Of a stretch of DNA of 64,000 bases, positions 2,648 through 20,363 are shown piece by piece. The stretch covers positions 310,001 through 374,000 of the forward strand of contig JAHBWI010000003.1 in the NCBI GenBank assembly GCA_019637075.1, written 5' to 3'. Below the pieces are notes generated by a model. That model was not told the DNA's origin, did no database searches, and was given only the letters and a program-made list of their open reading frames with translations. Each line of letters begins with the position of its first letter. Position 1 is the first letter of the stretch. The translations under genes were made by a program, and so were the position numbers. The DNA comes from Nitrospiraceae bacterium (GTDB lineage: Bacteria; Nitrospirota; Nitrospiria; Nitrospirales; Nitrospiraceae).

Positions 2648-2702
2648 TGTAGCAGCGGTGAGCAGGGCTCGGTAGACGCCCCTTTGAACCGTTGAGTAGC
2701 AT
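2648..2702 (+). promoter_or_regulatory. Repeated promoter module, copy A
   Basis: Direct repeats AGCAG at 2651-2655 and 2661-2665 lie within TGTAGCAGCGGTGAGCAG. They are followed by TCGG, a -35-like TAGACG (2673-2678) and a -10-like TAGCAT (2697-2702, spacing 18). The same layout occurs at five other places in this window. It stands before the small membrane protein at 2741 and receptor 2. The conserved string is seen directly; its function as operator plus sigma70-like promoter is inference. Confidence 0.65.
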
Positions 2703-2740
2703 GCCGATCTTGCTTGCTGACGGTGTGGCCTGTGACTTCG

Positions 2741-3136
2741 ATGCTCCGTTCCATCCATGCGTGCCGCGACGTCCGTCGGGTGCCGCTGTTGACGTTGATG
2801 GTGACGTGCCTGCTCGTCGGCATCCGCCTGACCGCTGCTCTTGTTTGTGCCACATGTTTCACCGAACTCGAGAAGCCTCCCACTCGCACGTTCCATCTCC
2901 ACGCCGGCGGCGACCGGGATCCTTGCCACCACGGGCAGGCGCCGGCGACGCCGTGGGTCGAGTGGGCCTGCTCGGTCAATCAGGATGACTCGGCCTTTCT
3001 CCTTCCGGAGATCTCACGGCTCCCGATCCTCGTTTCGACTCTCGTTCCCTTCTTCCTGCCCCTGGTCTCGTATCGGAGCTTCGCTTCGATCGCGGCCAAC
3101 GGTCGTGCTCCGCCCCCGTACTCGTTCGTTCGATAA
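2741..3136 (+). CDS. Small Cys/His-containing membrane protein, family 1 (copy A)
   Basis: About 131 residues, of no family I recognise. It is clearly paralogous to the protein at 6437-6835: both share a hydrophobic segment (CLLVGIRL/CLLVAIRL), then C..CF...EKP..R.FHLHAGGDRDPCHHG, WAC.V.QD..AF.LPEI.RLPI, and a second hydrophobic segment followed by SYR. The pattern of four cysteines and three or four histidines between two membrane segments suggests a periplasmic metal-binding loop. ATG 2741 was chosen because the promoter module places transcription start near 2709 and this start matches the paralogue; TTG 2714, GTG 2723 and GTG 2732 are alternatives. It precedes receptor 2 by about 215 bp. 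Confidence 0.65.
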   Translation: MLRSIHACRDVRRVPLLTLMVTCLLVGIRLTAALVCATCFTELEKPPTRTFHLHAGGDRDPCHHGQAPATPWVEWACSVNQDDSAFLLPEISRLPILVSTLVPFFLPLVSYRSFASIAANGRAPPPYSFVR

Positions 3137-3350
3137 GCCCCTGCAACAGATGGAAACGATCTCCCAGCCCTGAAGACCGCGTTGGGCGAGATCGTGTGTC
3201 CGAATCAGCCGGCTCGGTTGGGTGCGCGAGGACGCGCCTGCCTGAGGGCTCCGTCATCCGGATACCTGTGAATTGGAGCTGAGCCTTGCTCGGTGCCAAG
3301 CCGGTCGATTCGGGGAATGGGTGTCATGGGACGCAACAAGGAGTGTTGTC

Positions 3351-5570
3351 GTGATGAAGAGCAGTACCGCACATATGCAGAGCGCACGTCCGGTCATCGG
3401 CGTGATCGTGGCGATGATGTTGTTACCGGGGGGACGGGCCTGGGCCGACGAGTCGGCTGGAGCCGGAGCGGCGGAGGAGATTCCTATGGTCGAGTCGGCG
3501 GAGGTGATGATTTCCGCCACCCGCACGCCGACCTCGGTCGGTAACGTGAATCAGGCCGTCACGATCGTGACGGAGGAACAATTGCAGCAGCAGATTGCTG
3601 CGTCACCGAGCCGAAGTTTGACACAGATTCTGACGAAACTCGTGCCGGGCATGTCGCAGAACGATCAGTCGATGGATTCCGGCACATCATTGAAGATTAG
3701 GGGCCGGTCGATCGCGATCATGATCGACGGAGTCCCGCAGCAAAGCAGTCCGACCACGGAACTGGATCTGGCCCATATCGATCCCAGCGCCATCGAACGC
3801 ATCGAAATCATCCGCGGGGCGACCGCGATTTACGGTAACGGCGCCACGGGCGGTCTCATCAATATCATTACCAAGCAGCCGGGTGAGGGCAAGCCAAGCT
3901 ATTACACGGAGGTGCAAGGGAGCGGGTCGTTGACCAGGGTGTTGCGTGGGCTCAGCGGGACCGTGGTGCAGGGCTTTCAAGGCAAGAAAGACTGGTTCGA
4001 CTACAACATTGTCGGCAGCTTCAGCCAACAGGGTGGGATGTTCGACGCGAACGGCTCGCGCACCATGCCCGGCACCAATACGGTCGGCGGCTTTGCCGAC
4101 ACCAAGAGCTACAACATTATGAGCAAATTCGGGGCGACGTTCGGCGACCACCGGTTGCAGTTGACCTTCAATCGCAAGGAGTCGCGGCAGGATACCAATT
4201 ACCTGGTAGATCCCAATGTGGACGCGTTGCCGCGGACCTTCGCGAGATATGTGCCTGGTTTGTCGCTGGCAGACCAACCCAAGCTGGCGAACACGCAGAT
4301 CAGCGTCGATTACACCCACCCCCACCTGTTTCTCAACAGCCGCGTGCACTTGCAAGGGTACTACCGTACACAGCAGACGCGGTTTCCCACTTTGGACAGC
4401 CGGCTGTTCGGCGGCACGGATATTTTGCAAGGCTATAACCAAAGCGACGTGTTGGGAACCAGGCTCGACATCACCACGCCCATTCCGATCTATGGGAAGC
4501 CGGAAATCGTGTGGGGCATGGACTTCTCCAGCCAGCACGGGGCCCAGTCGCAGAGTCTCTTCGACCAGGCCGTGTATGATGGGTCCGGAGGGCGTGTCTA
4601 CAGCAAGAACGGCGAGGTGGCCTCGTCTCCCTCGCGTGTCTTCAACAGCACCGCAGTGTTCGCGCAAGGGGAGTGGACTCCGCTCGCCGCGCTGATCCTG
4701 CGCGGCGGCGTGCGGCATGAGCGGGTGAAGGTGTCCAGCAGCGATTTCACCGGGAACGGGTCCTTCCTCCCGGCCAGTTCGATCGACTTCGACACGACCG
4801 TGTTCAATGCCGGATTCGTGTACCACCTGTTGGACCCGCTGGATGTATTTTTCAACTTCAGCCAAGGCTTCAGTGTGCCGGTGGGGTCGATCGACAACGC
4901 GTTGGGCAATGTGCCGTCCGGTACCGCCATCTCGCTCTCGCGCCTGCAGCCGCAACGAGTCAATAATTACGAACTCGGTGTGCGGGGCAAATGGAGCAAG
5001 GTTCAGGCGTCGCTCTCCGGGTACATTTCCAAGTCATCGCTGGGGTTGAATTTCGATCAATTCACCAATTCCCTGCGGCGGGCTCCGCAAACGATCTACG
5101 GCGTCGAGGCCACGCTCGATGTGCAGCCGATCGAGCGGGTGCGTTTGGGCGGAACCTATACGTTCGTGGAAGGCGATCAGACCATCGCCTTCAACCCGGA
5201 TGTCCGGGTGCCGTTGAACGGCTTTGCGATCGCGCCGCAGAAGATCACCGCATACCTTGAACACCTGACGGTGCCTGAATGGCAGTGGCGCAATCGGATC
5301 CAGGTGCTCTATTCGGGGAGCCGCACCCGCTCGCTGACGGCATTCAACAGCGGGATCGATCCCACCGCGGATCCCTTCGGCCAGACGGAGTACTTTCTGG
5401 TCGATCTGGTCAGTACCGTGAAGGCCGGTCCTGGGACACTCCGGTTCGGCATCGAGAATCTGCTGAACAAGCAGTACGCGACGCCGTTCAACCAGATTTC
5501 CTTCACCAACAGTTTCTATTTCGCAGGGCGCGGAACCACGGCCTCGATCGGCTATTCGATCTACTACTGA
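3351..5570 (+). CDS. TonB-dependent outer-membrane receptor 2
   Basis: An outer-membrane transporter of about 739 residues. AAGGAG at 3338-3343 sits 7 bp before GTG 3351; ATG 3354 is in frame and equally possible, while the longer upstream reading frame lacks a signal. The signal peptide runs to about ARAWADES. Plug landmarks are ISATRTPTSVGNVNQAVTIV, LKIRGRS, AIMIDGVPQQ, ERIEIIRGATAIYGNGATGG and NIITK, and the barrel ends ASIGYSIYY. The plug resembles FepA/ViuA/IutA-type catecholate and hydroxamate receptors; the ligand is not determined. It lies downstream of promoter copy A and the small membrane protein, so it is probably part of the same regulated unit. Confidence 0.88.
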   Translation: MMKSSTAHMQSARPVIGVIVAMMLLPGGRAWADESAGAGAAEEIPMVESAEVMISATRTPTSVGNVNQAVTIVTEEQLQQQIAASPSRSLTQILTKLVPGMSQNDQSMDSGTSLKIRGRSIAIMIDGVPQQSSPTTELDLAHIDPSAIERIEIIRGATAIYGNGATGGLINIITKQPGEGKPSYYTEVQGSGSLTRVLRGLSGTVVQGFQGKKDWFDYNIVGSFSQQGGMFDANGSRTMPGTNTVGGFADTKSYNIMSKFGATFGDHRLQLTFNRKESRQDTNYLVDPNVDALPRTFARYVPGLSLADQPKLANTQISVDYTHPHLFLNSRVHLQGYYRTQQTRFPTLDSRLFGGTDILQGYNQSDVLGTRLDITTPIPIYGKPEIVWGMDFSSQHGAQSQSLFDQAVYDGSGGRVYSKNGEVASSPSRVFNSTAVFAQGEWTPLAALILRGGVRHERVKVSSSDFTGNGSFLPASSIDFDTTVFNAGFVYHLLDPLDVFFNFSQGFSVPVGSIDNALGNVPSGTAISLSRLQPQRVNNYELGVRGKWSKVQASLSGYISKSSLGLNFDQFTNSLRRAPQTIYGVEATLDVQPIERVRLGGTYTFVEGDQTIAFNPDVRVPLNGFAIAPQKITAYLEHLTVPEWQWRNRIQVLYSGSRTRSLTAFNSGIDPTADPFGQTEYFLVDLVSTVKAGPGTLRFGIENLLNKQYATPFNQISFTNSFYFAGRGTTASIGYSIYY

Positions 5571-5642
5571 GCCCACCAGGCTGGAGTGCACACCGGCTCG
5601 GCATGATTCCATGCCGAGCCGGTTCGTGCCATTCTTCCCCTC

Positions 5643-5696
5643 TGTAGCAGCAGTGAGCAGCGATCAGTAGACGCTCCGCTTGCTCGTGCGTGTAGT
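5643..5696 (+). promoter_or_regulatory. Repeated promoter module, copy B
   Basis: TGTAGCAGCAGTGAGCAG at 5643-5660 carries AGCAG repeats 10 bp apart. It is followed by TCAG, TAGACG (5668-5673), 17 bp, and TGTAGT (5691-5696). It is conserved although the gene behind it is broken, which suggests recent decay. The promoter role is inferred from the six-copy alignment. Confidence 0.55.
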
Positions 5697-5707
5697 CGGC
5701 ACCCCTA

Positions 5708-6041
5708 ATGAATCGATTCGACACAGTGGACGGCATGGCTGCTGCTCTGTGCCATCTATGCCTACTTCGTCGGCTTTCTTCCGTTCTTAGGCGCCGAGGA
5801 GTTTGCAGCGCACTATGCGATCGAAGGGGAACATGTTTCGGATTATGGATACTATGCCGCCCCGCAAATAGAAAAGCCGCAAGCAAATCAGGTGCTTCAG
5901 CCGGTCATGCTCCTCTGTTGCCCGGCTCCGCAACTGGTTGATCGTGCAGTGCTGGATGAATGGCAGCGTGATCGTCCGTCTCCGCTCGGATCTTCCCCTT
6001 CACATGGTCTCCGTGCCCCTCCCACGCTGATTCCCGCGTAA
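5708..6041 (+). pseudogene. Frameshifted small exported/membrane protein (paralogue of the gene at 12730)
   Basis: The only start codon (ATG 5708, MNRFDT) is out of frame with a good reading frame that runs from about 5712 to the stop at 6039-6041. That frame encodes a hydrophobic stretch (WTAWLLLCAIYAYFVGFLPF), FAAHYAIEGEH and an ending HGLRAPPTLIPA. It matches the intact protein at 12730-13077 in order and spacing (AEHYVTTPEEEH; HSLRAPPALMLA at the C-terminus). One extra base, or two missing, between about 5714 and 5727 accounts for the break. It could be a true pseudogene or a sequencing error. Confidence 0.6.
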
Positions 6042-6142
6042 CGCATTCCTGCGTCCATCGGCAGCCGCCGTCGTTCGATCGAGCCTCTGTCTCGACGGGC
6101 GGGGCCCTGCGCGAACCGAAGAAAGGGGATCATCGTGCGAGT

Positions 6143-6325
6143 GTGCCGATCAGTACGTTCTACAACCAGCCGGGTTTTCCAAGGGATCAAGTCGAGGGGC
6201 CGCTGGTCGACGTCAATGGGTTGCATAAGTTCAACGATTCTCCGGCCTATAACATGCCGGGGGAGCCGCTGATGGTAGTCGGTTCGTTGCGGTGGGAGTT
6301 CGAGTCATGGTGCCCGGTGCAGTGA
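6143..6325 (+). pseudogene. Probable C-terminal remnant of a TonB-dependent receptor
   Basis: This short reading frame has no ribosome site and ends with a typical receptor closing strand (PGEPLMVVGSLRWEF). Seven extra residues follow that phenylalanine, as if the original stop had been lost. It sits where a receptor gene would be expected by analogy with the 12656-15560 locus (promoter module, small protein, receptor), but about 2.2 kb of barrel and plug sequence is missing. Assignment rests on the terminal-strand pattern and context only. Confidence 0.4.
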
Positions 6326-6351
6326 GGAGCGCCTACCGGGTCTGGCGGGAC

Positions 6352-6405
6352 TGTAGCATCGGTGAGCAGGAGCTAGTAGACATGGGAGGTTGAGTTTCGT
6401 ATGGT
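6352..6405 (+). promoter_or_regulatory. Repeated promoter module, copy C
   Basis: TGTAGCATCGGTGAGCAG (6352-6369) is followed by GAGCTAG, TAGACA (6377-6382, close to a TTGACA -35), 17 bp, and TATGGT (6400-6405). It lies before the small membrane protein at 6437 and the PepSY/exporter genes. The -10-like box overlaps the ATG at 6401, which argues against that start. Confidence 0.65.
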
Positions 6406-6436
6406 AAGGGGGCTGCAGCTGTACGGAGTACATCCG

Positions 6437-6835
6437 GTGAACGACATTTTTCAGTTTGCGTCCATCCGTGGGCGAACGGGACGGACCCCGTCGCTGCTTG
6501 TTTTTGTTGCGTGTCTCCTCGTGGCCATCCGTTTGGTGGCCGGATTTGTCTGTCACACCTGCTTCATTGATTTCGAAAAGCCGACCTCCAGAAGCTTTCA
6601 TCTCCACGCCGGCGGAGATCGTGATCCCTGTCACCACGGCCGAGCCGAAGCGAGTCCCCTGACGACTTGGGCCTGTACGGTGACGCAGGACGAAACGGCG
6701 TTCATTCTCCCGGAAATTCCACGTCTCCCTATCGTGGTCTCTGAATTAGTTCCGCTGGTGTTGCTGCTGCTGTCCTATCGTACCTTGTTTGAGATTGTGG
6801 CCCACGGCCGCGGTCCCCCCGTTCCTCTCTCCTGA
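6437..6835 (+). CDS. Small Cys/His-containing membrane protein, family 1 (copy C)
   Basis: A protein of 132 residues with two hydrophobic segments (about 18-36 and 98-115). Between them lies a loop carrying CHTC and HLHAGG followed by DPCHHG. It is paralogous to 2741-3136, with cysteines, histidines and the closing SYR/GR.PP motif kept. GTG 6437 is preferred: GGAG at 6425-6428 is 8 bp away, and the upstream ATG 6401 falls inside the promoter -10 box. Metal binding in the periplasm is inferred from the residues only. It probably heads the unit that continues with the PepSY protein and the exporter, about 170 bp downstream. Confidence 0.65.
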   Translation: MNDIFQFASIRGRTGRTPSLLVFVACLLVAIRLVAGFVCHTCFIDFEKPTSRSFHLHAGGDRDPCHHGRAEASPLTTWACTVTQDETAFILPEIPRLPIVVSELVPLVLLLLSYRTLFEIVAHGRGPPVPLS

Positions 6836-7002: not shown

Positions 7003-8244
7003 GTGGTGCGCAGGATCATGAGTCACATGGTACGTGAGACCGTCACATCCGCATCGGTTTCGATGCCAGACGCCTCCCGGCGCACTCGCAGACGCGCGTG
7101 GCGCGCTGTGTGGGTGCAGGTGCATTTGTATTTGGGGCTATTCGTCGGAGCTCTGCTGGTGGTCTTCGGGGTGACGGGTAGCGTGCTCGTCTTCTTTCAG
7201 GAGATCGACGAGTGGCTGAATCCAACACTCCTGACGGTAGAGGTTCCGGCGCCAGGGCAGGATGAGTATCGGCCGGTGGGTGAGATCTTGGCGGCGGCGG
7301 AGCGGGCGGCGGCGCCGGGGAGCCGCATCACCCAGGTGTATGGCGCGCCGACTCGTGAACGTGTCGTGGCCGTGTATGTTGAGCAGCCCTCGACGGCCTG
7401 GCAGCGAATCTTTGTCGATCCCTATCGGGCCCGGGTCACGGGGGTGCGCAGCTACGGAGCTGGCGAGTGGGTCCCACGGTATTTCATGGATGCCGTCTTT
7501 TCGCTGCATTTTCAACTCTTGGCCGGTGTGAACGGCGTGACGCTGGCGGCGATTGTGGCGTGGCTGCTGATCCTCTCGTTGATCACGGGCGTGATCGTCT
7601 GGTGGCCTGTGAACGGCCAGTGGCGGCAGGCGCTGGTCATCAGGCGGCCGGCCATACCCTTCCGTCTCCTGTTTGATCTCCATAAGACGGTCGCGCTCTA
7701 TCTCTGTCTTGCGATCGGGGCGATCTTGCTGTCGGGTGCCTATATGAACTGGGCAGATCCCATCGTCTGGGTGACACAGCTCATGTCTCCGGCAACACGC
7801 GGGCCTGCGGAGGCCCCTCATTCCACCCCGCTTGCCGGTGGGCATCCGATCAGCCCGGAGCAGGCGGTGGCGTTGGCGGCGGCTCGCTATCCGGAGGGCC
7901 GACTGAGGTCGATCTCCATGCCGGAAGATGCAACAGGCGTCTATCAGGTCGGGCGGGAAGGCGTGCCGGGATTGAGCACGTTTTGGTCGGAACGGATCGT
8001 GAGCGTGGATCAATACAGTGGTGCGATTCTCGACGTGCGGGCCCCCGATACGAGGCGGAGCGCCGGAGAAACGTTTATCGATTGGCAATGGCCCCTGCAT
8101 TCGGGGCAGGCGTTCGGGATGCCCGGCCGCCTGCTCGTGTGCGCCAGTGGCCTGGCCTGTCCGGTCATCTATGCCACCGGGTTCCTCATGTGGTGGCGTA
8201 AGCGGCGTGGGCGCGAGCGGCGGGCGGTTGTGCCGATGTCATAA
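7003..8244 (+). CDS. PepSY-associated TM protein, putative ferric-siderophore reductase
   Basis: About 413 residues with the fold plan of the PepSY_TM family: an N-terminal segment (VHLYLGLFVGALLVVFGVTGS), a periplasmic PepSY region, two central helices (AAIVAWLLILSLITGVIVWWP and the helix after FDLHKTVALYL), a second periplasmic region, and a last helix ending in MWWRKRR. Histidines in WVQVHL, SLHFQL and FDLHK are at positions typical of haem-binding inner-membrane reductases. Members such as FpvG reduce ferric siderophores after import. The start is unsure: GTG 7003 or 7006 are close to GGAGG (6997-7001), and ATG 7018 or 7027 are alternatives. A paralogue follows receptor 3 (15589-16896). 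Confidence 0.8.
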   Translation: MVRRIMSHMVRETVTSASVSMPDASRRTRRRAWRAVWVQVHLYLGLFVGALLVVFGVTGSVLVFFQEIDEWLNPTLLTVEVPAPGQDEYRPVGEILAAAERAAAPGSRITQVYGAPTRERVVAVYVEQPSTAWQRIFVDPYRARVTGVRSYGAGEWVPRYFMDAVFSLHFQLLAGVNGVTLAAIVAWLLILSLITGVIVWWPVNGQWRQALVIRRPAIPFRLLFDLHKTVALYLCLAIGAILLSGAYMNWADPIVWVTQLMSPATRGPAEAPHSTPLAGGHPISPEQAVALAAARYPEGRLRSISMPEDATGVYQVGREGVPGLSTFWSERIVSVDQYSGAILDVRAPDTRRSAGETFIDWQWPLHSGQAFGMPGRLLVCASGLACPVIYATGFLMWWRKRRGRERRAVVPMS

Positions 8245-9586: not shown

Positions 9587-9597
9587 CGAGTCCGTCC

Positions 9598-10278
9598 ATG
9601 TTTGATCCGGTCGTCAGTCTCAGAAGGTCACCAAGAGTTATAGCGTGCCGGCACTCAGGTGTCGGTCCTGCAGGATTTGTCCGCTGGCATTCCGGCCAGC
9701 ACCTTTACTCGCGATCATGGGACCGTCCGGGTCCGGCAAGAGTACGTTGCTGAACGTAATGAAGCGGGGATCGATCGGCCGACGGAAGCGGATCGGTGGT
9801 GGTGGCGGAACCAGGCTGGACGGCTTGTCGAAGGTGAGATGGCGCGGTGGCGCGCGCCACATCAGGTATGTGTTTCAGACCTACAACCTCATTCCGGTGC
9901 TGACGGCGGCGGAAATGTGGAAATTGCCGCTGGCCCTGACATCGACGCGGCGGGAGCGCGCCGACCGTGTAAAGATAACCGCTACGGCTGGTCGGGCTGG
10001 AGTGATCGTATGGATCACTATCACGGCAGGTGTCCGGTGGCCAGGAGCAGCGGGTCGGCGTGGCGCGCGCCATTGTCAGCGACCCGACCATGATCCTCGC
10101 GGACGAGCCGACCGGAAACCTCGATCGCGAATCGGCCGACGACATCCTCACTCTCCTGGCCAGGTTGAACCGTGAATTGGGCAAGACCATCGTGATGGTC
10201 ACGCACGATCCCCGCGCGTCCGAGCGGGCGCAGATGATCCGGCATCTCGAAAAGGGGCTGTTGGAGTTGCCGCCATGA
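9598..10278 (+). pseudogene. ABC transporter ATPase (MacB/LolD type), broken by many frameshifts
   Basis: Reading from ATG 9598, an ABC ATPase can be rebuilt only by changing frame about nine times before 10030: MFDPVVSL, then VTKSYSVPAL, then VSVLQDLSAGIPA, then IMGPSGSGKSTLLNVM (Walker A), GIDRPTE, GGGGTRLDGLS, EGEMARWRA, RHIRYVFQTYNLIPVLTAAE (Q-loop), then DRMDHYH. From 10030 the frame is clean: [14 protein letters not shown] (signature), [12 protein letters not shown] (Walker B) and VMVTHD (H-loop) to the stop. Most shifts are one- or two-base indels with amino acids otherwise preserved. The stop overlaps the next gene by ATGA. This is either decay of the ATPase alone or a local sequence-quality problem. 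Confidence 0.8.
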
Positions 10279-11441
10279 CACTGATCCGCTTGATGCTTCG
10301 GAACACGATCCGGCGGCCGGTGCGTCTGGCGCTGACGATCGGCGGCCTGGCGATGGTCGTCTTGGCCTTCGGGTTGTTGCGGCTGACGCTGGATGAATGG
10401 CACAGCGGCGTGAAGGCGGCGGCCAACAATCGCTTGATCACCGTCCATGCCATGTCCGATTCACTGCTTCTGCCGTTGTCGTATCGAGAGCGGATAGCGG
10501 TAGTCCCCGGTGTGCAGGTGGCGCATTACGGCAATGTGTTCGGCGTCGAGTACCGGGATGCGAAGGAATCGTTCGGGGCGTTTGCGGAGCAGATGAGCAC
10601 GTTCTTCGAGACGTACCCGGAAGTCATCTTGAACGAAGCGGATCGTCTGGCGTTGCTGAAGGATCGGGGCGGATGCCTTATCGGACAGAAACTCGCCGCC
10701 CGCTTCGGCTGGAAGGTCGGTGACGTGATCCCGCTCAAGGGCACGACCCATCCTGGGAACTGGGAGTTGACCGTACGCGGCATCTACCGCAGCAGCAGCC
10801 CCGGCATCATGGGTGAAGGCGAACTCTATGTGCATTGGCAGTTTGCCAATGAGCGTCTGAGGACGACGGCGCCGGATCGAGCCGACCAAGTGGGTTGGTA
10901 CGTCGCCACGACGGCGCCGGGCGTGAATCCCCGCAGCGTGGTCGCCGCCATCGATGCCACCTTTGCCAACTCATTCGCGGAAACCAGGACGGAGCGCGAA
11001 CAAGCCTATATTGCCGGCTGGGTCGCGCGCTCGGGCGCGTTGCTCGATGCATTGGATTGGTTGTCCGGCGTGATGAACGGCATCGCGGCCCTGGTTCTGG
11101 TCAATGCGTTGGCGATGGCGGTGCGCGAGCGAACGAGGGAATATGGGGTGATGAAGACCCTGGGCTTCCAGCCGCGCCATTTGGTGGCGCTCGTCCTGGG
11201 GGAGTCGCTGCTGGTGGCGCTGGGCGGCGCTCTGGCCGGGTTGGGATTGTTGTACCCGGCGGCGCGGCTCTATGCGGTCATGGTCGCAGGTGGAAAAACG
11301 GTAGGCGCCTATGAGATCACCGCCGAGACGATCGGGATGTGTCTGGGTGTAATGGTCCTGGTCGGCCTGCTGGCTGCCCTCTGGCCCGCCGTACGTCTCA
11401 GCCATATGACGACGTTGGAAGGGTTGCGTCACAGGGGATAA
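10275..11441 (+). CDS. ABC transporter permease, FtsX/MacB family (first of two)
   Basis: A protein of 388 residues whose ATG overlaps the stop of the ATPase remnant (ATGA). It has an N-terminal membrane segment (about 15-38), a periplasmic MacB_PCD-like domain, and three C-terminal helices. The usual cytoplasmic-loop motif [20 protein letters not shown] lies between the second and third helices. It would form half of a heterodimeric exporter with the permease at 11459. The gene is intact although its ATPase is not, so the complex is either dead or uses an ATPase encoded elsewhere. Confidence 0.85.
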
Positions 11442-11458
11442 CGTCGCGAGGTCGGCCG

Positions 11459-12628
11459 GTGTTGTGGAGCGTGTACAGTCTGCGGAATCTCTGGGCGCGC
11501 CGCGTCACGACCCTGCTCACGCTGCTGGGGCTTGGGCTCGTGGTCTTCGTGTTCGTGGCCATTCTGATGCTGGCGCACGGCTTGGAGCGGACGATGGGCA
11601 GGACCGGGGATCCTGCCAACGCGATCGTGATGAGTAAGGGAGCGCTCTCCGAAATCGAAAGCAGCCTGTCACGCGATCACACCGGGGTGCTGGCGGCACA
11701 GCCGGAGGTCATCACCCTGGCGAACCATCAGGCCGCGGCGGTGCGGGAAATTGCTTTGCAACTCACCTTGCGCAAGCAGGGAGGCGGAAGCCTGGCCAGC
11801 CTGTCGCTGCGTGGATCTTCGCCCGATGCCTTTGCCGTGCGCCCCCCGGTGCGCATCGTCCAAGGACGTCTGTGGCAGCCGGGCACGACGGAGGTGATTG
11901 TCGGCACCCAGGTGGCCAAGCAGTTTCCTGAAGCCCGTCTGTCCGAAACGCTGCGGTTCGGGCGGCGGGAGTGGACGGTAGTCGGGATCTTCGAGTCGGA
12001 GGGCAGCGGCTTCGACTCCGAGGTGTGGGGCGATGCGGAGCAGATGATGGCCACGTTCCATCGCACGGCGTTCTCGTCCATGACCATACGGTTGGCCGAT
12101 CCGACTGTGCTGCCGGCATTCAAAGCGCGGCTGGAGCGAGATCCCCGGTTCAAAGTGTCAGTGAAGCGCGAGCCGGAGTATTACGAAGGCAAGGCCGAGG
12201 GGCTGGCCAGGCTGATTCGCGTGACCGGCTTATTCCTGACCGTGGTGTTCAGCGTCGGGGCCATGCTCGGGGCGACGATGACCATGTCCGCCTCCGTCGC
12301 GCATCGCACGACGGAGATCGGCACACTTCGCACCTTGGGATTTACGCGCAGCCACATTCTGCAGGCCTTTCTGCTCGAATCGATTCTACTGGGCCTTGCC
12401 GGAGGACTGCTGGGTGTGGCTGGCGCCGCCCTGCTCAATTCCATGACGATTTCGACCGTGAACTGGGATACCGGCGCCGAGTTGGCCTTTGCATTTCATC
12501 TCACCCCCGCGATGGTCGGCGAAGGATTGCTCTTCGCCGCCGGCATGGGAGTCATCGGGGGCCTCGTGCCCGCCGCACGGGCGGCACGTATCGAGATTGT
12601 CCACGCACTCGGACAACGGACGGTCTAG
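11459..12628 (+). CDS. ABC transporter permease, FtsX/MacB family (second of two)
   Basis: A protein of 389 residues. GTG 11459 lies 6 bp after CGAGG (11448-11452); a longer frame from 11339 would overlap the first permease by 100 bp and is not supported. The architecture is one N-terminal helix (LLTLLGLGLVVFVFVAILML), a periplasmic domain, then three helices with HRTTEIGTLRTLGFTRSHIL in the loop, the same plan as its neighbour. It pairs with 10275-11441 and the adaptor at 8318 as a MacAB-like exporter. The substrate is unknown; the setting among receptors and PepSY proteins suggests metal chelates or siderophores. Confidence 0.85.
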   Translation: MLWSVYSLRNLWARRVTTLLTLLGLGLVVFVFVAILMLAHGLERTMGRTGDPANAIVMSKGALSEIESSLSRDHTGVLAAQPEVITLANHQAAAVREIALQLTLRKQGGGSLASLSLRGSSPDAFAVRPPVRIVQGRLWQPGTTEVIVGTQVAKQFPEARLSETLRFGRREWTVVGIFESEGSGFDSEVWGDAEQMMATFHRTAFSSMTIRLADPTVLPAFKARLERDPRFKVSVKREPEYYEGKAEGLARLIRVTGLFLTVVFSVGAMLGATMTMSASVAHRTTEIGTLRTLGFTRSHILQAFLLESILLGLAGGLLGVAGAALLNSMTISTVNWDTGAELAFAFHLTPAMVGEGLLFAAGMGVIGGLVPAARAARIEIVHALGQRTV

Positions 12629-12655: not shown

Positions 12656-12709
12656 TGTAGCAGCCATGAGCACCCATCCGTAGGCAGCCCGCGGAGCGTC
12701 TGTTATAAG
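12656..12709 (+). promoter_or_regulatory. Repeated promoter module, copy D
   Basis: TGTAGCAGCCATGAGCAC (12656-12673) is followed by CCATCCG, TAGGCA (12681-12686), 17 bp, and TATAAG (12704-12709), the second being 5 of 6 to the sigma70 -10 consensus. It begins 28 bp after the exporter operon and would start transcription about 14 bp before the gene at 12730. It is among the strongest copies for the promoter reading. Confidence 0.7.
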
Positions 12710-12729: not shown

Positions 12730-13077
12730 ATGTCTCGCCTCAATCGATCCTGGCAAGCCTGCGTTGCGCTGCTGCTCTTCCTCCCGGTGTGGTGGTGGGT
12801 CGGGCTGCCGCCGCTCTGGAGCCCGGTCGATCTGGCCGAACACTATGTCACGACGCCCGAAGAAGAGCATTGCAATGAGGTCTGTCCGCATCCGATTTCT
12901 TTGGTAGATCCGCCGCAGGCCTCGTCGCTTCAAGCCGTTGTCTATGATTGTTCCCATCCGCCGGCGTGTCTCGTCACGCGCCTGCCCCACCTCCGCAAGC
13001 TTCGACCTCCACCGCCGAAGCTGATCACCGCCACACTGCACAGTCTCCGTGCTCCTCCCGCGCTGATGCTCGCGTAA
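12730..13077 (+). CDS. Small membrane/exported Cys-containing protein, family 2 (intact copy)
   Basis: A protein of 115 residues; AGGAG (12717-12721) lies 8 bp before the ATG. It has one hydrophobic segment near the N-terminus (CVALLLFLPVWWWVGL), then an acidic EEEHC, NEVCPHP, DCSHPPACL, a proline/basic stretch and the ending HSLRAPPALMLA. Five cysteines after the hydrophobic segment and several histidines suggest a periplasmic metal-binding tail. The frameshifted gene at 5708 is its paralogue. It stands between promoter copy D and receptor 3, so it is probably the first gene of that operon. I recognise no named family. Confidence 0.65.
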   Translation: MSRLNRSWQACVALLLFLPVWWWVGLPPLWSPVDLAEHYVTTPEEEHCNEVCPHPISLVDPPQASSLQAVVYDCSHPPACLVTRLPHLRKLRPPPPKLITATLHSLRAPPALMLA

Positions 13078-13172
13078 CACCCCGGTTCGCCCATATGAGG
13101 CCGACGGCTGTTCGGGCGAAGTCTGTCTTCGCGCTGGCCTCAGACCCATTCGCATCAACGAGGAGCATCACG

Positions 13173-15560
13173 ATGTTGTGTTCAGTCATGTCTCTGTCCC
13201 GTGAGTTCACCGGTATCAGTCGAGGCCGTTCGGTGACGACTGCCGTCATTGTCCTTCTTCCCATGCTCTCTGCCTGCATCGGACCCCATGTCCAACCGGC
13301 GCCAGCGCCGCAAAGTCAGGCAGGCATCGTCGAGCCGGCGGATCGCGTTGATCCTGCTCCGCAAGCCGAACAGATTCCATCGCAGACAACCGCTCCCTCG
13401 GCGCCTCTGCCCTTGCCGGTTTTGCCGGTGGAGGTCGCTCGATCCGAGGGGCTTCAGGAGGCGGGAGACATCCCGGTGATCGAAGCCGAGCCTGTGATCG
13501 TGACCGCACAGCGCGAGTCGTATGCCGTGGATTCAGCCTTTACGGCGACGAAGACTGATACTCCGCTGATGGAAACGCCGATGGCCGTGCAGGTGGTTCC
13601 GAAGCAGGTCCTGCAGGATCAGCGGGTGAATCGACTGCAGGATGCCTTGCAGAACGTGAGCGGAGTGCGCTCCAACAACAATGACGTCGAAGGGTATGTC
13701 TACAAGTTGCGGGGGTTTAACAGTCTCCATGTCTTCCGCAACGGTCTGACCTTGGCGGGCGGCCTTGGCTCCAACCCAGGGATTCATGAGACCGCGAACC
13801 TCGAACGGGTGGAGGTGCTGAAAGGGCCGGCCTCCGTGCTGTTCGGGCGAGCGGAGCCGGGCGGGTTGATCAACCTCGTCACCAAACGTCCCCTTGCGAC
13901 ACCATATTACAAGCTGGAGCAGGAATTCGGCTCCTATGATCACTATCGAACGGTCTGGGATGCGACCGGACCGTTGAATCAGTCCGGCACGATCGGCTAC
14001 CGATTGTCGGGCGCCTATCAGGACTATGGCTCGTTTCGAGATTTTCAGGGCGGGCGGCGGGTGTTTCTCGCGCCGGTCCTAGCCTTCAAGCCGACCGATC
14101 GGACCGATCTGGTCATCGACCTGCAGTATTTGAGGAACGATGCGCAGAGCGATACGATCTTTCCGGCTCTCGGCAATCGCCCGGCGCCGCTCGCGCTTCA
14201 CCGGTCGTTCCAGGAAGCCAACGATCCCCGCGACTGGACCGGCAATTTCAACCTCGGTTACGACCTGACCCACCGGTTCAACCAAAATTGGTCGCTCACC
14301 AGCCGCTTTCTGTTCAGTAAAGGCAGCATGAAAAAGCTGAACGTCTTCGCCACGGCGCTGGACGACGCGACCGGGGTGCTGGACCGCACCACGCAGTTCC
14401 AGAAGCTCATGAGCACCACCTACGCGACCAACCTGGATCTCAAGGGGAAGTTTGATGCGCTGGGCGCGAAGCATCAGGTCCTGGTCGGCGTGGACTACCT
14501 GCATGATGCCTACGACTATAGCTATGCGGAGGGCCTTTCGAATTTCCCCATCAATATTTTCAACCCTGTGTATGGCAGCGTTCCGACCTCGGCCTATGAC
14601 GAGGCCTTAAACGGGGCTGGGTTTCGAAGTTTTGCCTCGTCTCTCGTGAAACAGGCTGGCGTCTATGTTCAGGATCAGATCACCCTCTTTGGCAAGTTGC
14701 ATGTCTTGCTCGGGGGACGATACGACCATGCCGAAGTCGGGCAGGGCAACAGTGACGTCTCTCGCGAGGAGGCCATCACCGATCGCCACGGACGATTCGT
14801 GAGAACGGACGAGCAGTTCAGTCCGCGCGCCGGGATCCTGTATCAATGGACCGCGCAGTTGAGTACATACGCGAGCTATTCAAAATCCTTCGGTGCCAAC
14901 AACGGTCGCTCGGCGACTGGGGAGGCGCTGCCTCCCGAGAGTGGTGAGCAGTTCGAAGTGGGCACCAAGACCGAGCTGTTCCAGGGATTCTCGGCCACCG
15001 TGGCCCTGTTTCATTTGATCAAGAAGAACATCCTGACACCGGATCTGACCACTCCGGATCCCACCGACGCTAGGGCGGTCGGCCAAGCGCGCAGTCAGGG
15101 TGTCGAAGTTGATCTTCTTGGTGCGGTGACCACGCAACTGGATCTAATCGTGACGTACGCGTATCTCGATACCAAGGTCACGCGGGACGACAGCGGCCTG
15201 CAGGGTAATCGGCTGGACAATGTGCCGTCGCATAGTGGGCGAGTCTTTCTTGTGTATCACTTCGGTGGCGAGGGCGGATTGGGCTGGCGGGTCGGTGGAG
15301 GCGTCTCGGCGGCCAGCGCGGTGTCTGGAGATCGGGAAAACACGTTCAATCTGCCCGCGTATTACAGGCTGGATGCCATGACGAGTTACACCGCCATGGT
15401 TGGTGGCCGGCGCCTGACGGCTCAACTCAACCTGCGCAATCTGACGAATACGAAGTACTTCGACGGGACCGATATCTTCTACAACCAGCGGTCGCCGCGG
15501 TTTGGCCTGTTTGCCGCACAGCCCCTCATGGCGTTCGGCACAATTCGAATGGAGTTCTAA
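13173..15560 (+). CDS. TonB-dependent siderophore receptor 3 (FhuE/Fiu-like), with lipobox-like leader
   Basis: A receptor of 795 residues. GAGGA at about 13160 precedes ATG 13173; the open frame further upstream overlaps the small gene and is not needed. The leader ends in LLPMLSAC, a good lipobox, which is unusual for a receptor of this class. A proline-rich linker of about 70 residues follows, then the plug (METPMAVQVVPKQVLQDQ, YKLRGF, LERVEVLKGPASVLFGRAEP, GGLINLVTKRP) typical of the TonB-siderophore family, and a barrel ending FGTIRMEF. It is followed at 28 bp by a PepSY reductase-type protein, the standard receptor/reductase pairing for ferric siderophores. Confidence 0.88.
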   Translation: MLCSVMSLSREFTGISRGRSVTTAVIVLLPMLSACIGPHVQPAPAPQSQAGIVEPADRVDPAPQAEQIPSQTTAPSAPLPLPVLPVEVARSEGLQEAGDIPVIEAEPVIVTAQRESYAVDSAFTATKTDTPLMETPMAVQVVPKQVLQDQRVNRLQDALQNVSGVRSNNNDVEGYVYKLRGFNSLHVFRNGLTLAGGLGSNPGIHETANLERVEVLKGPASVLFGRAEPGGLINLVTKRPLATPYYKLEQEFGSYDHYRTVWDATGPLNQSGTIGYRLSGAYQDYGSFRDFQGGRRVFLAPVLAFKPTDRTDLVIDLQYLRNDAQSDTIFPALGNRPAPLALHRSFQEANDPRDWTGNFNLGYDLTHRFNQNWSLTSRFLFSKGSMKKLNVFATALDDATGVLDRTTQFQKLMSTTYATNLDLKGKFDALGAKHQVLVGVDYLHDAYDYSYAEGLSNFPINIFNPVYGSVPTSAYDEALNGAGFRSFASSLVKQAGVYVQDQITLFGKLHVLLGGRYDHAEVGQGNSDVSREEAITDRHGRFVRTDEQFSPRAGILYQWTAQLSTYASYSKSFGANNGRSATGEALPPESGEQFEVGTKTELFQGFSATVALFHLIKKNILTPDLTTPDPTDARAVGQARSQGVEVDLLGAVTTQLDLIVTYAYLDTKVTRDDSGLQGNRLDNVPSHSGRVFLVYHFGGEGGLGWRVGGGVSAASAVSGDRENTFNLPAYYRLDAMTSYTAMVGGRRLTAQLNLRNLTNTKYFDGTDIFYNQRSPRFGLFAAQPLMAFGTIRMEF

Positions 15561-15588
15561 ATGCAGGCCGCTGCAGAAAGGAGCCGGT

Positions 15589-16896
15589 ATGTTCACCAGA
15601 CCGTTCTGGGTTCGGCTGCATCGCTGGGCCGGGCTGGCCATGGCCGGTTTGCTGATTGTGGTCGGCCTGACGGGAAGTCTGCTGGCGTTTTATCCGGAGC
15701 TTGAGCGACTCGTCCATCCACACTGGTATCCGGACCGCGCTCCGGCCACGTGGATGGGCGCCGGCGCGCTGGCAGAGAAACTGGAGAGGGCCGAGCCGCG
15801 ATTGCGCGTCCAGCAGTTGTCGTTGCAGGGCTTCGACGGCGCGACCTCCGCCTGGGTGGAGCCTCGCCTCGATCCGGCTACCGGCAAGCTGTTCGAGCTG
15901 GGCTACGACTATGTCCTACTCGATCCGGCGACGGGCGCGGTGCTCGACCGGATTCGGTGGGGCTCGCTGCTGAACGGATGGACCGGCCTCATGTCTTTCG
16001 TCTACGCGTTGCACTATGCGTTGGCACTGGACATGCCGGGTGTCTGGATTCTGGGAATCTGTGCCCTGGTGTGGACGCTGGATTGTTTTGTCGGGTTGTA
16101 TCTGACCTTCCCGGCCCGGCGGTCTCGTGAAGCACACGCGCACTTGCAGCCGGCTCCCGGCGATGCAAGCTGGTGGGCGCGTTGGAAGCGAGCCTGGATC
16201 ATCAAACCCGGCAATGCCCAGCGCGTCAATTTCGACCTCCACCGGGCAGGCGGTTTGTGGTTGTGGCTTGCCCTAGTGCTGTTTGCCTGGTCGAGCGTCT
16301 ACATGAACCTGTGGGATACGGTGTACACCTGGACCACGCGGGCGTTCTTCGACTACCGCACCTATTGGACGGAGTTTCGACCACGGCCCGCTCTGATGGA
16401 GCGGACAGGGTTGGATTGGCTGGACGCGCAGGCGGTCGGGGAGCGGCTCATCGCGGAGCAAGCCGCGTTGCAGGGCTTCATGGTGAAGCGGCCGGTGGTG
16501 CTTCGGCTATATCGTGATCTCGGCGTCTATCAGTACCAGGTTGAGACCGATCGGGAAATCGACGATCGTCCGCGTCGATACGCGACGCAAGTCTTTTTCG
16601 ACGCCGACTCGGGTGCGCTACGCCTCGCGCTGCTGCCTCGCGGCCAATATGCTGGCAACACCATCAGCAATTGGCTCTATGCACTGCATATGGCCAATGT
16701 GTTCGGCTTGCCCTATCGGATCTTTGTCTGTTTCCTGGGAGTCGTCGTCGCGATGCTTTCCGTCACGGGCGTGTACCTCTGGGTGAAGAAACGCCGATCC
16801 AGGGCCATGGCGCAGGCCCGGTTACTTCGGCTGCCGGACGTGCAGTCGGCTAGGCCATCGGGTCACGCAGATCTGAAGAGTTCTGCGAATTTGTAG
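15589..16896 (+). CDS. PepSY-associated TM protein 2, putative ferric-siderophore reductase
   Basis: A protein of 435 residues; AAAGGAG lies just before ATG 15589. It has the PepSY_TM plan: helix 1 in MFTRPFWVRLHRWAGLAMAG, a periplasmic part, helices around LHYALALDMPGVWILGICALVWTLD and FDLHRAGGLWLWLALVLF, a second periplasmic part, and a last helix (IFVCFLGVVVAMLSVTGVYLWV) with a basic tail. Conserved histidines HRWAG, LHYAL, FDLHR and LHMAN fit haem ligation. It is translated right after receptor 3 and is likely needed to release iron in the periplasm or at the inner membrane. It is paralogous to 7003-8244. Confidence 0.82.
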   Translation: MFTRPFWVRLHRWAGLAMAGLLIVVGLTGSLLAFYPELERLVHPHWYPDRAPATWMGAGALAEKLERAEPRLRVQQLSLQGFDGATSAWVEPRLDPATGKLFELGYDYVLLDPATGAVLDRIRWGSLLNGWTGLMSFVYALHYALALDMPGVWILGICALVWTLDCFVGLYLTFPARRSREAHAHLQPAPGDASWWARWKRAWIIKPGNAQRVNFDLHRAGGLWLWLALVLFAWSSVYMNLWDTVYTWTTRAFFDYRTYWTEFRPRPALMERTGLDWLDAQAVGERLIAEQAALQGFMVKRPVVLRLYRDLGVYQYQVETDREIDDRPRRYATQVFFDADSGALRLALLPRGQYAGNTISNWLYALHMANVFGLPYRIFVCFLGVVVAMLSVTGVYLWVKKRRSRAMAQARLLRLPDVQSARPSGHADLKSSANL

Positions 16897-16945
16897 CAGC
16901 CGTGAGCAGGCGTCGGTAGACAAGCTCTGAGGATGGGCATACAAG
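16892..16945 (+). promoter_or_regulatory. Repeated promoter module, copy E
   Basis: TGTAGCAGCCGTGAGCAG (16892-16909) overlaps the stop of the PepSY gene. It is followed by GCGTCGG, TAGACA (16917-16922), 17 bp, and TACAAG (16940-16945). Transcription would start near 16952, after the ATG at 16933, which supports the later start of the next gene. Confidence 0.65.
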
Positions 16946-16971
16946 AACGCGTACAGAGGAAAACCCTGACG

Positions 16972-17304
16972 ATGCAGATGTGGTTCCCCAAACGCTGGCC
17001 GGTCCTTCTCTCCATTCTGGTCGCAGGAGTGTATCTCTCGCTGACGCTCATGGCCGCCGGCTGCCTGATGAGCCATGCCGCCGAGTCCGGTCACCATGAC
17101 CACCATGCGGCGGGCAATTCCGGCTCCTTACTCTGCGCCGTTTCCTGTCAGGCCACTTCCGATTCAGACCTCGTCTTGCCGGCTCCGACCGGCATTCCCT
17201 TAGCCACCGCCTTCATCATCGCGCCTTCAACTTCCGCGGATCTTTCCGCCGAAGTGGCCTCGGCGCGTCAGCCACGCGCACCGCCTGTCCCAGCCCTGGG
17301 ATAG
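16972..17304 (+). CDS. Small exported His-rich protein
   Basis: About 110 residues. The start at 16972 (AGAGGA at 16955-16960) is chosen over ATG 16933 because the latter lies within promoter copy E. An N-terminal hydrophobic segment (VLLSILVAGVYLSLTLMAAGCL) is followed by HAAESGHHDHHAAG, two cysteines (LLCAVSCQ) and a Pro/Ala-rich tail. The layout resembles small DUF2946-type periplasmic proteins found beside TonB-dependent metal receptors, but the match is only by pattern. Metal binding in the periplasm is a reasonable inference; no function is known. Confidence 0.6.
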   Translation: MQMWFPKRWPVLLSILVAGVYLSLTLMAAGCLMSHAAESGHHDHHAAGNSGSLLCAVSCQATSDSDLVLPAPTGIPLATAFIIAPSTSADLSAEVASARQPRAPPVPALG

Positions 17305-17568
17305 TTCAGGTGGACTGCGCGTCCTTCTCGAATCATCTGTCATAGCGTCGCTCGTTCCGCTCCGGTCTGTGAAGGCCTTGTCGGACAAGCCGACGTGCAT
17401 TCGATCTGAGCTTTCTCGCTATCTGGAATCGAGTCCGCAGGACGGGTGACGTTCGCGGACTCCCCGGGGCGCAGGTTCTTCTCCGGGAGCCTCCGCTCCG
17501 GACCCATCGAGCGGGGACGATGGCGCCGCTGTCCGGCCGGACCGGTCGCCATCAGAGGAGATGCGTCA

Positions 17569-17817
17569 ATGGAGCCTCCGCTCCTGCGAGTCAAAGAAGC
17601 GGCGCAGTTGCTGAGCGTCAGTAAGTGGACGATCTACCGTTGGATCGAAGAAGGACGGTTGGAAGCCAGCAAGATCGGCGGTGGCAGCCTGCGAATCTTC
17701 CGCGTCTCGGTGATGGCGTTGGTCGACGAGAATCGGACGGAGCAGGCGAGCGGGGCACCGAGGTCCCGAGCCGCCGTGGTTCGCCTCAGTCGAGCGCGCG
17801 CGAAGAAACGTCTGTGA
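17569..17817 (+). CDS. Excisionase-type helix-turn-helix DNA-binding protein
   Basis: An 82-residue protein; AGAGGAG (17554-17560) lies 8 bp before ATG 17569. The first 50 residues match the HTH_17/excisionase (MerR-like winged helix) family: LLRVKEAAQLLSVSKWTIYR, then WIEEGRLEASKIGGGSLRIF. The tail is rich in Arg, Ser and Ala. No integrase or phage gene is nearby, so it is more likely a stand-alone regulator than an excisionase. It is the only small DNA-binding protein inside the metal island and a possible, unproven, candidate for control of the repeated promoter module. Confidence 0.75.
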   Translation: MEPPLLRVKEAAQLLSVSKWTIYRWIEEGRLEASKIGGGSLRIFRVSVMALVDENRTEQASGAPRSRAAVVRLSRARAKKRL

Positions 17818-17868
17818 TGTTACGGTGTCGGGTCCCGAAGTTGTGCACCCTTCTTCCGGACCTGCCTC

Positions 17869-17903
17869 CCGAGGCGATGGGGTGGCCTCCCCCATTGCCT
17901 CGG
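17869..17903. other. Strong intergenic hairpin
   Basis: CCGAGGCGATGGGG (17869-17882) pairs with CCCCATTGCCTCGG (17890-17903), 14 bp with one G-T wobble and a 7-base loop. A second small GC hairpin (GCCCTTCGGGGC) follows. There is no T-run on either side, so it is not a classical intrinsic terminator. It separates the HTH gene from the TPR gene. Confidence 0.55.
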
Positions 17904-17957
17904 CCCTTCGGGGCTTCGGCAGAGACGAGGCTGAATCTGTGAAGGTGTGAACCAGCG

Positions 17958-19223: not shown

Positions 19224-19252
19224 AGAGCGGACGGACGCGAAAGGAGCAAGCC

Positions 19253-19777
19253 ATGCAAGGTGGATTGGCAGCGGTCGTCGGTTCCTTTCCGCACAGGACC
19301 TCTGAGCTCGCCGAGTATCCTGGGTTGAAGGTGGCAGTGGTGCGGTTGCTCACGATCGCCCTCCATATCAGCGGGGAGCAAGGCGTAGGTGTTCGGGAGG
19401 TGGCCATGCCGCTTCCGACAGGCTATCGGGCCTGGCCGAGCTACTCAGCCCTCGTCCAGTCGGCAGCCGGTTGTCGGCGTATCCATTGTTATGTGAGTTC
19501 GAAGGCGCTCTGTACCGGGGATGACCGAGCCTTTCCTGTCGGGACGTCGTTCGTCGTCGAGACCTATGCCTACGACGGCCCGGGTAGGGCGAAGGTGCCG
19601 GCGTCGGGCAATGCGACGGGGCCTGAGTTCATATTCGTGATGGGGAAATATGCCAGCATGAGTTCGGAGGATGATCGCGCAGAGCGGTGGCAGACCTGGA
19701 TGTATGCGAGTTACGGCCAGGACGGCCTGCCTCTGGCCGCCGCGGCAAGCTCATGCGGGTTCTGCCGATTGTCTTGA
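19253..19777 (+). CDS. Cytochrome P460-like protein with altered haem motif (CxxCR)
   Basis: A protein of 174 residues; AAAGGAG (19240-19246) lies 6 bp before the ATG. The body has the P460 pattern: MPLPTGYRAWPSY, RRIHCYVSSKAL, FPVGTSFVVETY, EFIFVMGKYAS and a closing Cys-x-x-Cys. Instead of CxxCH the chain ends SSCGFCRLS, with arginine where the haem-ligating histidine should be, and it stops right there. No clear signal peptide is seen although P460 proteins are periplasmic. P460 cytochromes oxidise hydroxylamine or bind NO in ammonia oxidisers. Here the protein may be non-haem, degenerate, or truncated by a small indel near the end. Confidence 0.55.
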   Translation: MQGGLAAVVGSFPHRTSELAEYPGLKVAVVRLLTIALHISGEQGVGVREVAMPLPTGYRAWPSYSALVQSAAGCRRIHCYVSSKALCTGDDRAFPVGTSFVVETYAYDGPGRAKVPASGNATGPEFIFVMGKYASMSSEDDRAERWQTWMYASYGQDGLPLAAAASSCGFCRLS

Positions 19778-19979
19778 CGCGTGGGGCAAAAAGATTGGGC
19801 TGCGACTGGTGGACGGGACCTGGGTTGGACTGCGCTGACCACGCAGTGGGTTCCGATAGAGGGACGCGTACTACCCATATGCGTCCCTCTGCCACCTCGT
19901 TATGACCTGACAAATGGCTCGCGCAGGAGTACAATCCCCCGGCCTGGTACCAATTGAAGAGCAGAAGGGAGGGAAGAAT

Positions 19980-20279
19980 ATGATCAACTATGGGAGTCGA
20001 TTCGCGCTGTGTGCCGTTGTCGCAACGGCCTTAGCCTCGCCGACCGGCTTAGTCTGGGCCGGAAAAGATGGGCACGTGAAAGAGACCGTCGCGCATGCGA
20101 AGGAAGCCTTGGCGCACGAGAAGGAAGCGATCAAGCATCTCGAGGAATCGGTGAAGGCGAGCAATGATGCCCATGCCAAGGAAGCGCTGGAGCATGCGAA
20201 GGAAGCCGTGAAGCATGCCGAGGAATCCCTGGCTCATGCCGAGCAGGCCTCGGGGAAGAAAAGCGCGAAGGGCAAGTAG
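19980..20279 (+). CDS. smbP: SmbP-like small metal-binding protein
   Basis: A 99-residue protein with a strong AGGGAGGGA ribosome site. After a signal peptide (ALASPTGLVWA) it consists of helical heptad-like repeats of the form HAKEALAHEKEAIKHLEES, with histidines spaced to line one face. This is the pattern of SmbP, the periplasmic small metal-binding protein described in Nitrosomonas europaea, which binds copper and several other divalent metals. It probably buffers copper or other metals in the periplasm. It ends 20 bp before promoter copy F, next to a cupredoxin-like gene, so the setting agrees with metal handling. Confidence 0.8.
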   Translation: MINYGSRFALCAVVATALASPTGLVWAGKDGHVKETVAHAKEALAHEKEAIKHLEESVKASNDAHAKEALEHAKEAVKHAEESLAHAEQASGKKSAKGK

Positions 20280-20299
20280 GCGAATACGTCGAACGATCT

Positions 20300-20363
20300 T
20301 GTAGTACCGGTGAGCAGCCGTCGGCGCCGGGCGGTAGACGCGCTTCCTGAGCGGGACTATAAC
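20300..20363 (+). promoter_or_regulatory. Repeated promoter module, copy F (with 10-base insert)
   Basis: TGTAGTACCGGTGAGCAG (20300-20317) is followed by CCGTCGG plus about 10 extra GC-rich bases, then CGG-TAGACG (20335-20340), 17 bp, and TATAAC (20358-20363, 5 of 6 to the -10 consensus). The extra bases put one more helical turn between the repeats and the -35-like box while keeping the phase, which fits a protein-binding site. Confidence 0.6.

Follow-up and report, generated by a model that had tools for sequence, protein, structure and literature searches.

The window analyzed here, a 64,000-nucleotide stretch of a Nitrospiraceae bacterium genome (contig C3, positions 310001 to 374000; genome size, 4.06 Mb), carries repeated copies of a compact promoter-like module and, behind one of them, the gene of a small helix-turn-helix (HTH) protein that we consider the candidate regulator of the set. 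At ≤3 mismatches the window holds six copies against 0.16 expected, a number reached in 0 of 100 shuffles, and these are the six that a preliminary description of this DNA had listed. All lie on the plus strand: module A (2648..2702; repeats 2648-2665, -35 TAGACG 2673-2678, -10 TAGCAT 2697-2702), module B (5643..5696; -35 TAGACG 5668-5673, -10 TGTAGT 5691-5696), module C (6352..6405; -35 TAGACA 6377-6382, -10 TATGGT 6400-6405), module D (12656..12709; -35 TAGGCA 12681-12686, -10 TATAAG 12704-12709), module E (16892..16945; -35 TAGACA 16917-16922, -10 TACAAG 16940-16945), and module F (20300..20363; -35 TAGACG 20335-20340, -10 TATAAC 20358-20363). A seventh copy is located at C3:307050, 2,951 bp ahead of the window, and the seven, all on the same strand, span 23.3 kb. 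Read from the sequences, the spacer between -35 and -10 is 17 bp in copies B to F and 18 bp in A and the seventh copy. The repeat spacing of 10 bp and the two hexamers are as first described, and the roughly 10 extra bases reported for copy F amount to exactly one additional 10-bp unit.

Across 96 sites collected at ≤4 mismatches, some of which are therefore chance matches, the consensus consists of two 10-bp direct repeats (TGTAGCATCC GTGAGCANSC, with the repeat unit AGCANNCGTN), GTCGGTAGACA, 17 to 18 bp, and a TANAAT-like -10. Bases within the search pattern are conserved by construction, and the independent positions are the -10, position 31, and the N positions; the conservation of the -10, which lies outside the pattern, is thus an independent result. 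Among 91 sites, TA opens the -10 hexamer in 70% at spacer 17 and 26% at spacer 18, compared to 0 to 12% at the remaining tested offsets save spacer 19 (27%), and the best spacer is 17 in 59 sites, 18 in 23, 15 in 7, 16 in 1, and 19 in 1. In 93 of 96 sites the -35 has A as its second base, in contrast to TTGACA, a preference that the pattern itself partly imposes. Conservation is low downstream of the -10, and the distance to the start codon varies while that to the -10 is fixed. Hexamers separated by 16 to 18 bp, as here, fit a sigma-70-type promoter. Gene calls in this site-context count, as in the region, leader, and HTH-upstream comparisons below, come from our own open reading frame (ORF) heuristics; of 87 sites, 21 fall at least partly within a called ORF, which is antisense in 10 cases, an over-long start of the next gene in 7, and the end of the preceding gene in 4.

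In the whole genome an 18-mer of the module yields 8 matches at ≤2 mismatches, 7 of them within the cluster, but at 3 mismatches it becomes uninformative (12 matches versus 16 in the reversed control), and a longer pattern was therefore chosen for counting. This 30-mer, TGTAGCANCNRTGAGCASNNNTCNGTAGRC, matches six times, at cluster copies only, with none in the reversed control; copy F escapes it because of its 10-bp insert. At ≤3 mismatches the module pattern is present in 89 of 175 genomes of the same family (reversed control, 1). In a sample of the phylum it was matched in 73 of 395 genomes (control, 2), comprising 68 of the family and 5 of 33 from sister families of the order, with none among the remaining sampled genomes. 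On 28 of the 30 contigs with two or more matches, all copies face one way, among the matches listed. A separate exact pattern, run against one genome per species in GTDB r220, recovered 53 stretches, 52 of them in Nitrospira or Nitrospirota records, and an exact scan of viral contigs was empty. The organism is thus a relative of Nitrospira, from a genus represented by one genome in the set examined, and the module looks confined to Nitrospirales. The sole exact match outside Nitrospirota falls in a Methylomirabilis metagenome-assembled genome (MAG) (L079, NSJM01000093.1, about 621-648, minus strand); no HTH relative is found in the 2.3 kb examined there, and the match could reflect either real transfer or mis-binning.

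Copy F is among several sites that carry one additional 10-bp unit. A pattern allowing any gap of 17 to 46 between TGTAGCA and GGTAGACA, where the basic gap is 16, gave 32 matches, a total that proves nothing since the reversed control gave 34; support for longer arrays comes only from the pile-up at exactly +10 (10 matches in 8 genomes, compared to 2 at +9 and 3 singletons) and from the extra in-phase units, a GTGAGCA-like one being visible by eye in 9 of the 10 arrays. The other 17 matches are one different conserved sequence at gap 20, TGTAGCA-N20-GGTAGACA, which occurs in 17 genomes, lacks the GTGAGCA unit, is probably coding, and was set aside as unrelated. Extended arrays in two relatives (L143 and L155) precede the same gene family that is found behind F. 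Although the inserted unit of F has drifted in sequence, array length and phase are retained, as a row of protomers would demand. Conservation within Nitrospirales, the single strand, the place before operons, the conserved -10 outside the pattern, and the +10 arrays together strongly support the promoter/operator module and local regulon that had been proposed, as far as sequence can tell.

Two small HTH_17 genes are encoded in the cluster, out of 13 HTH_17 matches in the whole genome: HTHa (64 aa; C3:304795-304989) and HTHb (82 aa; window 17569..17817, plus strand, with a GTG start at 17446 also open), and members of the candidate regulator family range from 64 to 82 aa. Both exceed the cut-offs of PF12728 (HTH_17; 50 and 45.5 bits, cut-off 27) and of the excisionase-family DNA-binding model TIGR01764 (49.2 and 45.2, cut-off 28.8). 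A profile built from 16 HTH proteins of module regions (profile A1) matches 107 of the 175 family genomes at E 1e-12, distributed as 85 of the 89 module genomes and 22 of the 86 others, while 4 genomes have the module only and 64 have neither (Fisher, 2e-23; genus-stratified Cochran-Mantel-Haenszel test, 4e-15; because the genomes are related, neither value is a true probability). Within genus g13 alone, both occur in 26 genomes and neither in 3. Distances could be taken in 72 of the 89 module genomes, among the matches listed: the nearest HTH gene is ≤1.2 kb away in 54, ≤10 kb in 10, ≤40 kb in 1, and beyond in 1, always on the same strand as the module (66/66), and in 6 no HTH match shares the module contig. 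The association extends to the sister families, where all 5 module genomes have the HTH, compared to 6 of the 28 remaining genomes, and in 4 of the 5 a module lies 47 to 50 bp past the matched HTH stretch. We also compared 36 regions, 21 picked by module (including the window's own) and 15 by HTH. HTH_17 occurs in 30 of the 36, a figure inflated because 15 were picked by HTH, and in 15 of the 21 module-picked ones (14 relatives' regions and the window's own). A weight matrix recovers a weaker module in 9 of 14 regions from HTH-only genomes and in none of the reversed sequences.

AlphaFold2 predicts a winged helix for HTHb (E-H-H-E-E-H over residues 5-60), with a mean predicted local distance difference test score of 85 to 95 for the ten-residue blocks up to residue 50, 74 for residues 51-60, and <50 for residues 62-82; the tail past residue 61 is predicted to be disordered. 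Its best solved fold match is Xis of mycobacteriophage Pukovnik (Gp37, PDB 4j2n; Z 10.2, root mean square deviation 1.3 over 54 residues), followed by BldC of Streptomyces (Z 8.6 and 8.5; Foldseek E values, 4e-4 and 1.5e-3). Profile searches agree, giving E 6e-6 for 4j2n, which is the best match by sequence too, and 0.008 (profile A1) or 0.031 (profile A2) for BldC. Another Xis entry, 2ief (Z 5.7), names a cooperative Xis-DNA filament in its title. These Xis proteins are recombination factors, whereas the HTH gene here belongs to metal-uptake loci that contain promoter sites, and the family representatives examined included no integrase.

BldC is described as a small MerR-like winged helix with no dimerization or effector domain that binds head to tail on direct repeats of varying number (PMC5859096). 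HTHa and HTHb are likewise stand-alone winged HTH proteins without a coiled coil or effector domain, and they have no recognizable sensor domain. Of nine BldC residues that serve contacts or the head-to-tail arrangement, by our reading of the printed alignments, Glu16, Arg30, Trp31, and Gly44 correspond to the invariant E10, R24, W25, and G37 of the family and Leu43 to a mostly Ile/Leu position (I36), while F21 is replaced by L and Arg22, Lys26, and His46 are lost. The two differ in context, as BldC controls development and the module loci are concerned with metal uptake. Since the HTH proteins also miss the BldC cut-off and the BldC repeat is 9 bp and AT-rich (see below), we claim that they work like BldC and not that they are BldC.

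Small Cys-pair ORFs head the operons behind four of the window's modules, all on the plus strand: leader-like ORF A (2714..3136; CATC, C-terminal GRAPP), C (6401..6835; CHTC, GRGPP), D (12730..13077; CNEVC, LRAPP; ahead of a TonB receptor), and E (16972..17304, 110 aa; CAVSC, PRAPP). The true start of leader C is probably downstream of 6401, which falls within the -10. ORFs A, C, and D have no Pfam match, and E shows similarity to DUF2946 below the cut-off. Cys/His proteins do not follow every copy: A, C, D, and E precede one, B precedes a frame-broken remnant of one, F another exported-looking protein, and the seventh copy a BNR-repeat protein. The remnant behind module B (5712-6325) ends in LRAPP and has no common start codon in frame, and a fragment after it is similar to a TonB receptor, at 34% over 41 aa. 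By its sequence, module B is apparently a promoter retained before a decayed operon.

Searching 85 merged sites in the 36 regions for ORFs of 60 to 200 aa within 160 nt, we find a small ORF ending in R[AG]PP behind 60, of which 54 contain CX2-3C. Of the 120 small ORFs that start near sites, 55 end this way, compared to 55 of 3,055 elsewhere. The leader-like ORFs start near the -10 of the module, making them the first gene of the operon, and their N termini are hydrophobic by eye. Of 68 distinct HTH genes, 34 likewise have a leader-like ORF ≤600 nt upstream, at gaps of 169 to 565 nt. In the window, 264 nt (17305..17568, plus strand) separate leader E from the HTHb gene, and this stretch has a hairpin just ahead of the HTH start (folding z, -2.04; 6 of 200 shuffles as good). 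In 12 of 14 relatives from genus g13 (L161 to L186), a hairpin, GGAGCGGT...ACCGCTCC or a close variant, is seen by eye a short way ahead of the HTH start; the strong hairpin of the window is of different sequence, and covariation support is small. Three further Cys-pair, R[AG]PP leader-like ORFs, within one island in region L009 (5627-5929, 8388-8696, and 11801-12172), have no module detected ahead.

A better reading of these small Cys/His proteins is that they are leader peptides resembling CruR and CutF. Both are small exported Cys-pair proteins that end in a RAPP or proline motif and are encoded at the head of operons containing TonB receptor and PepSY genes, and CruR is separated from the next gene by a long gap (PMC9426467, PMC9973294). 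For CruR of Bordetella pertussis, it is reported that copper at CXXC lifts an arrest on RAPP, after which Rho halts transcription ahead of the TonB receptor and PepSY gene (PMC9426467); for CutF of Rhodobacter capsulatus, the copper effect is described as opposite (PMC9973294). CruR homologues are followed by transporters, chaperones, and Cu-binding proteins, and the phylum list given with them does not name Nitrospirota (PMC9426467). In DUF2946 searches, 3 of 10 scanned leaders matched with E 0.0012 to 0.11, the best at 20 bits against a cut-off of 23.7 over 98 of 123 residues. Unlike CruR and CutF, the leaders here fall short of the DUF2946 cut-off, have one promoter module in common, and in many loci stand ahead of an HTH gene.

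Our best model, which we consider rather likely to be right, is that an HTH_17 activator acts on the 10-bp arrays while leader peptides sense metal. The module would be an activator-dependent sigma-70-type promoter, on whose direct repeats HTHa and HTHb may line up head to tail as direct neighbors, with a single protomer on each unit. The protomer row would end beside the weak -35 TAGACA and recruit RNA polymerase; its length would depend on whether the array has 2 or 3 units, with helical phase to the -35 kept. As the HTH proteins appear sensorless, sensing could come from the small ORF placed under most of the modules examined. Its nascent, exported product would bind metal at CX2-3C and arrest through the R[AG]PP at its C terminus, like CruR and CutF, and may gate the genes that follow, namely, those for TonB receptors, PepSY, and ABC/HlyD and, in many loci, the one for the HTH protein. 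The sequences show the module with its conservation, its place, and its 10-bp extensions, the linkage to the HTH gene, the predicted HTH fold, and the leader signature; binding, activation as opposed to repression, arrest, and copper as the signal are what we infer. More tentatively, and somewhat less likely than not, these parts may form a two-layer copper circuit in Nitrospirales, in which a copper-sensing arrest peptide gates the gene of the sensorless, head-to-tail binding activator and the activator switches on a regulon of promoters, most of them driving arrest-peptide leaders of their own. Such a circuit would combine transcriptional amplification with translational gating of each operon on one signal, and the number of array units could tune promoter strength in helical steps.

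Several observations, the array control among them, weigh against this interpretation. Four module genomes (G071, G156, G157, and G162) have no HTH match at E 1e-12, even the weight matrix finds no module in 5 of the 14 HTH-only regions, and of the 9 regions in which it does, 3 are faint, scoring 11.7 to 14.8 where training sites reach at least 25. The HTH gene itself lies within a module-bearing island, so its co-occurrence also fits a regulated passenger, and the co-occurrence and linkage tests do not fully separate a regulator from a linked passenger. HTHa and HTHb, at 27.2 and 19.7 bits, miss the cut-off of 77 of the BldC model NF033787, and winged helices of other function, from phage packaging, transposon excisionases, and SoxR, reach Z 7.9 to 7.7, within 1 of BldC and thus tied with it under the rule of the fold-comparison tool. 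The BldC repeat is a 9-bp, AT-rich AATTNNNNC, compared to GC-containing units of 10 bp here. On the leader side, 25 of the 85 sites lack an R[AG]PP-ending ORF, and none of the 10 proteins scanned reaches the DUF2946 cut-off. Finally, the arrays touch the -35, which is compatible with repression.

In one alternative, HTH_17 would bind the same arrays as a repressor and occlude the -35, which the array abuts. BldC is said to delay development, with protection from about -60 to -10 at smeA-sffA (PMC5859096). We nevertheless consider an HTH_17 repressor rather unlikely, as the array stays upstream of the -35 with phase kept, as at activator-dependent promoters, and in nearly all sites the second base of the -35 differs from that of TTGACA, with the reservation already made for the pattern. 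Alternatively, the same module might answer to a regulator encoded elsewhere, of the OmpR/PhoB type, with the HTH_17 gene simply a regulated member of the island. Regulators of this type can bind direct repeats of 10 to 11 bp beside the -35, and their promoters resemble the module in having phased direct repeats that end at a weak -35. Response regulators are also listed among direct-repeat binders (PMC5859096), five Trans_reg_C matches are present in the genome, and an ORF of family 27 ends at a module in L202, L204, and L205, the L205 member (the sole one scanned) carrying Trans_reg_C. Yet the cluster of this genome encodes no regulator of that type, the closest of the five matches being about 195 kb away; family 27 is found in 7 of the 36 regions, far fewer than HTH_17 in all regions or in those picked by module; and the HTH follows the module into the sister families as well. 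We regard this explanation as unlikely.

The preliminary description had favored an AraC-type activator, for which phased direct repeats upstream of the -35 would speak, and TonB receptor genes are often AraC regulated. However, AraC half-sites tend to be longer than 10 bp, the genome contains two HTH_18 matches, on contigs C1 and C2 with none on C3, and the linked, conserved regulator is an HTH_17 protein, leaving AraC control very improbable. Equally hard to credit is an element that is not a promoter at all. Its repetition within one island might suggest an RNA leader structure or a spread mobile repeat, but a fixed distance to the -10 with a variable one to the start codon, fading conservation past the -10, and the near-uniform strand all point away from both. 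An RNA element was rejected, as Rfam at gathering scores has no match in window positions 1-24000, and a mobile repeat was rejected on the empty exact scan of viral contigs and the weak conservation past the -10.

Among the other genes of the window, a PepSY_TM protein (7003..8244, plus strand) follows leader C, and a TonB-dependent siderophore-type receptor (12948..15560, plus strand, given as the longest ORF with the true start later) scores 339.4 bits to TIGR01783 (cut-off, 223.5). The protein behind F (family 15; 20310..20732, plus strand, true start later) looks exported by eye and has neither an R[AG]PP end nor a Pfam match. Loci in the 36 regions also encode TonB receptors, PepSY, TonB, HlyD, and SmbP- and HMA-like proteins, and TlpA, ExbB/D, ABC, and FtsX proteins were recognized by eye in module loci, a gene content that fits copper or iron uptake. 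Adjoining the regulon at 19253-20279 and 22920-25799 are P460-like and SmbP-like proteins, both below the Pfam cut-off, as well as a metal P-type ATPase with several YHS-like Cys motifs read by eye. In L205, one ORF (10059-11702, minus strand; from the family present in 7 of 36 regions) has a PEP-CTERM-like motif below the cut-off in its middle, followed by an OmpR-type DNA-binding domain, and lies immediately ahead of a diverged module.

Members of Nitrospira perform nitrite oxidation, and comammox, worldwide. Our literature search returned no account of the module or of a BldC-like metal regulon, and no described cis-regulatory motif for Nitrospira metal-uptake loci. The module gives these loci a regulon with a named candidate regulator. 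If the proposed mechanism is true, head-to-tail binding on repeats, a trait of proteins of development and of phages, would extend to metal uptake, the 2- and 3-unit arrays would offer a natural series in which to study it, and CruR-like leader peptides would be placed upstream of a transcription factor gene.

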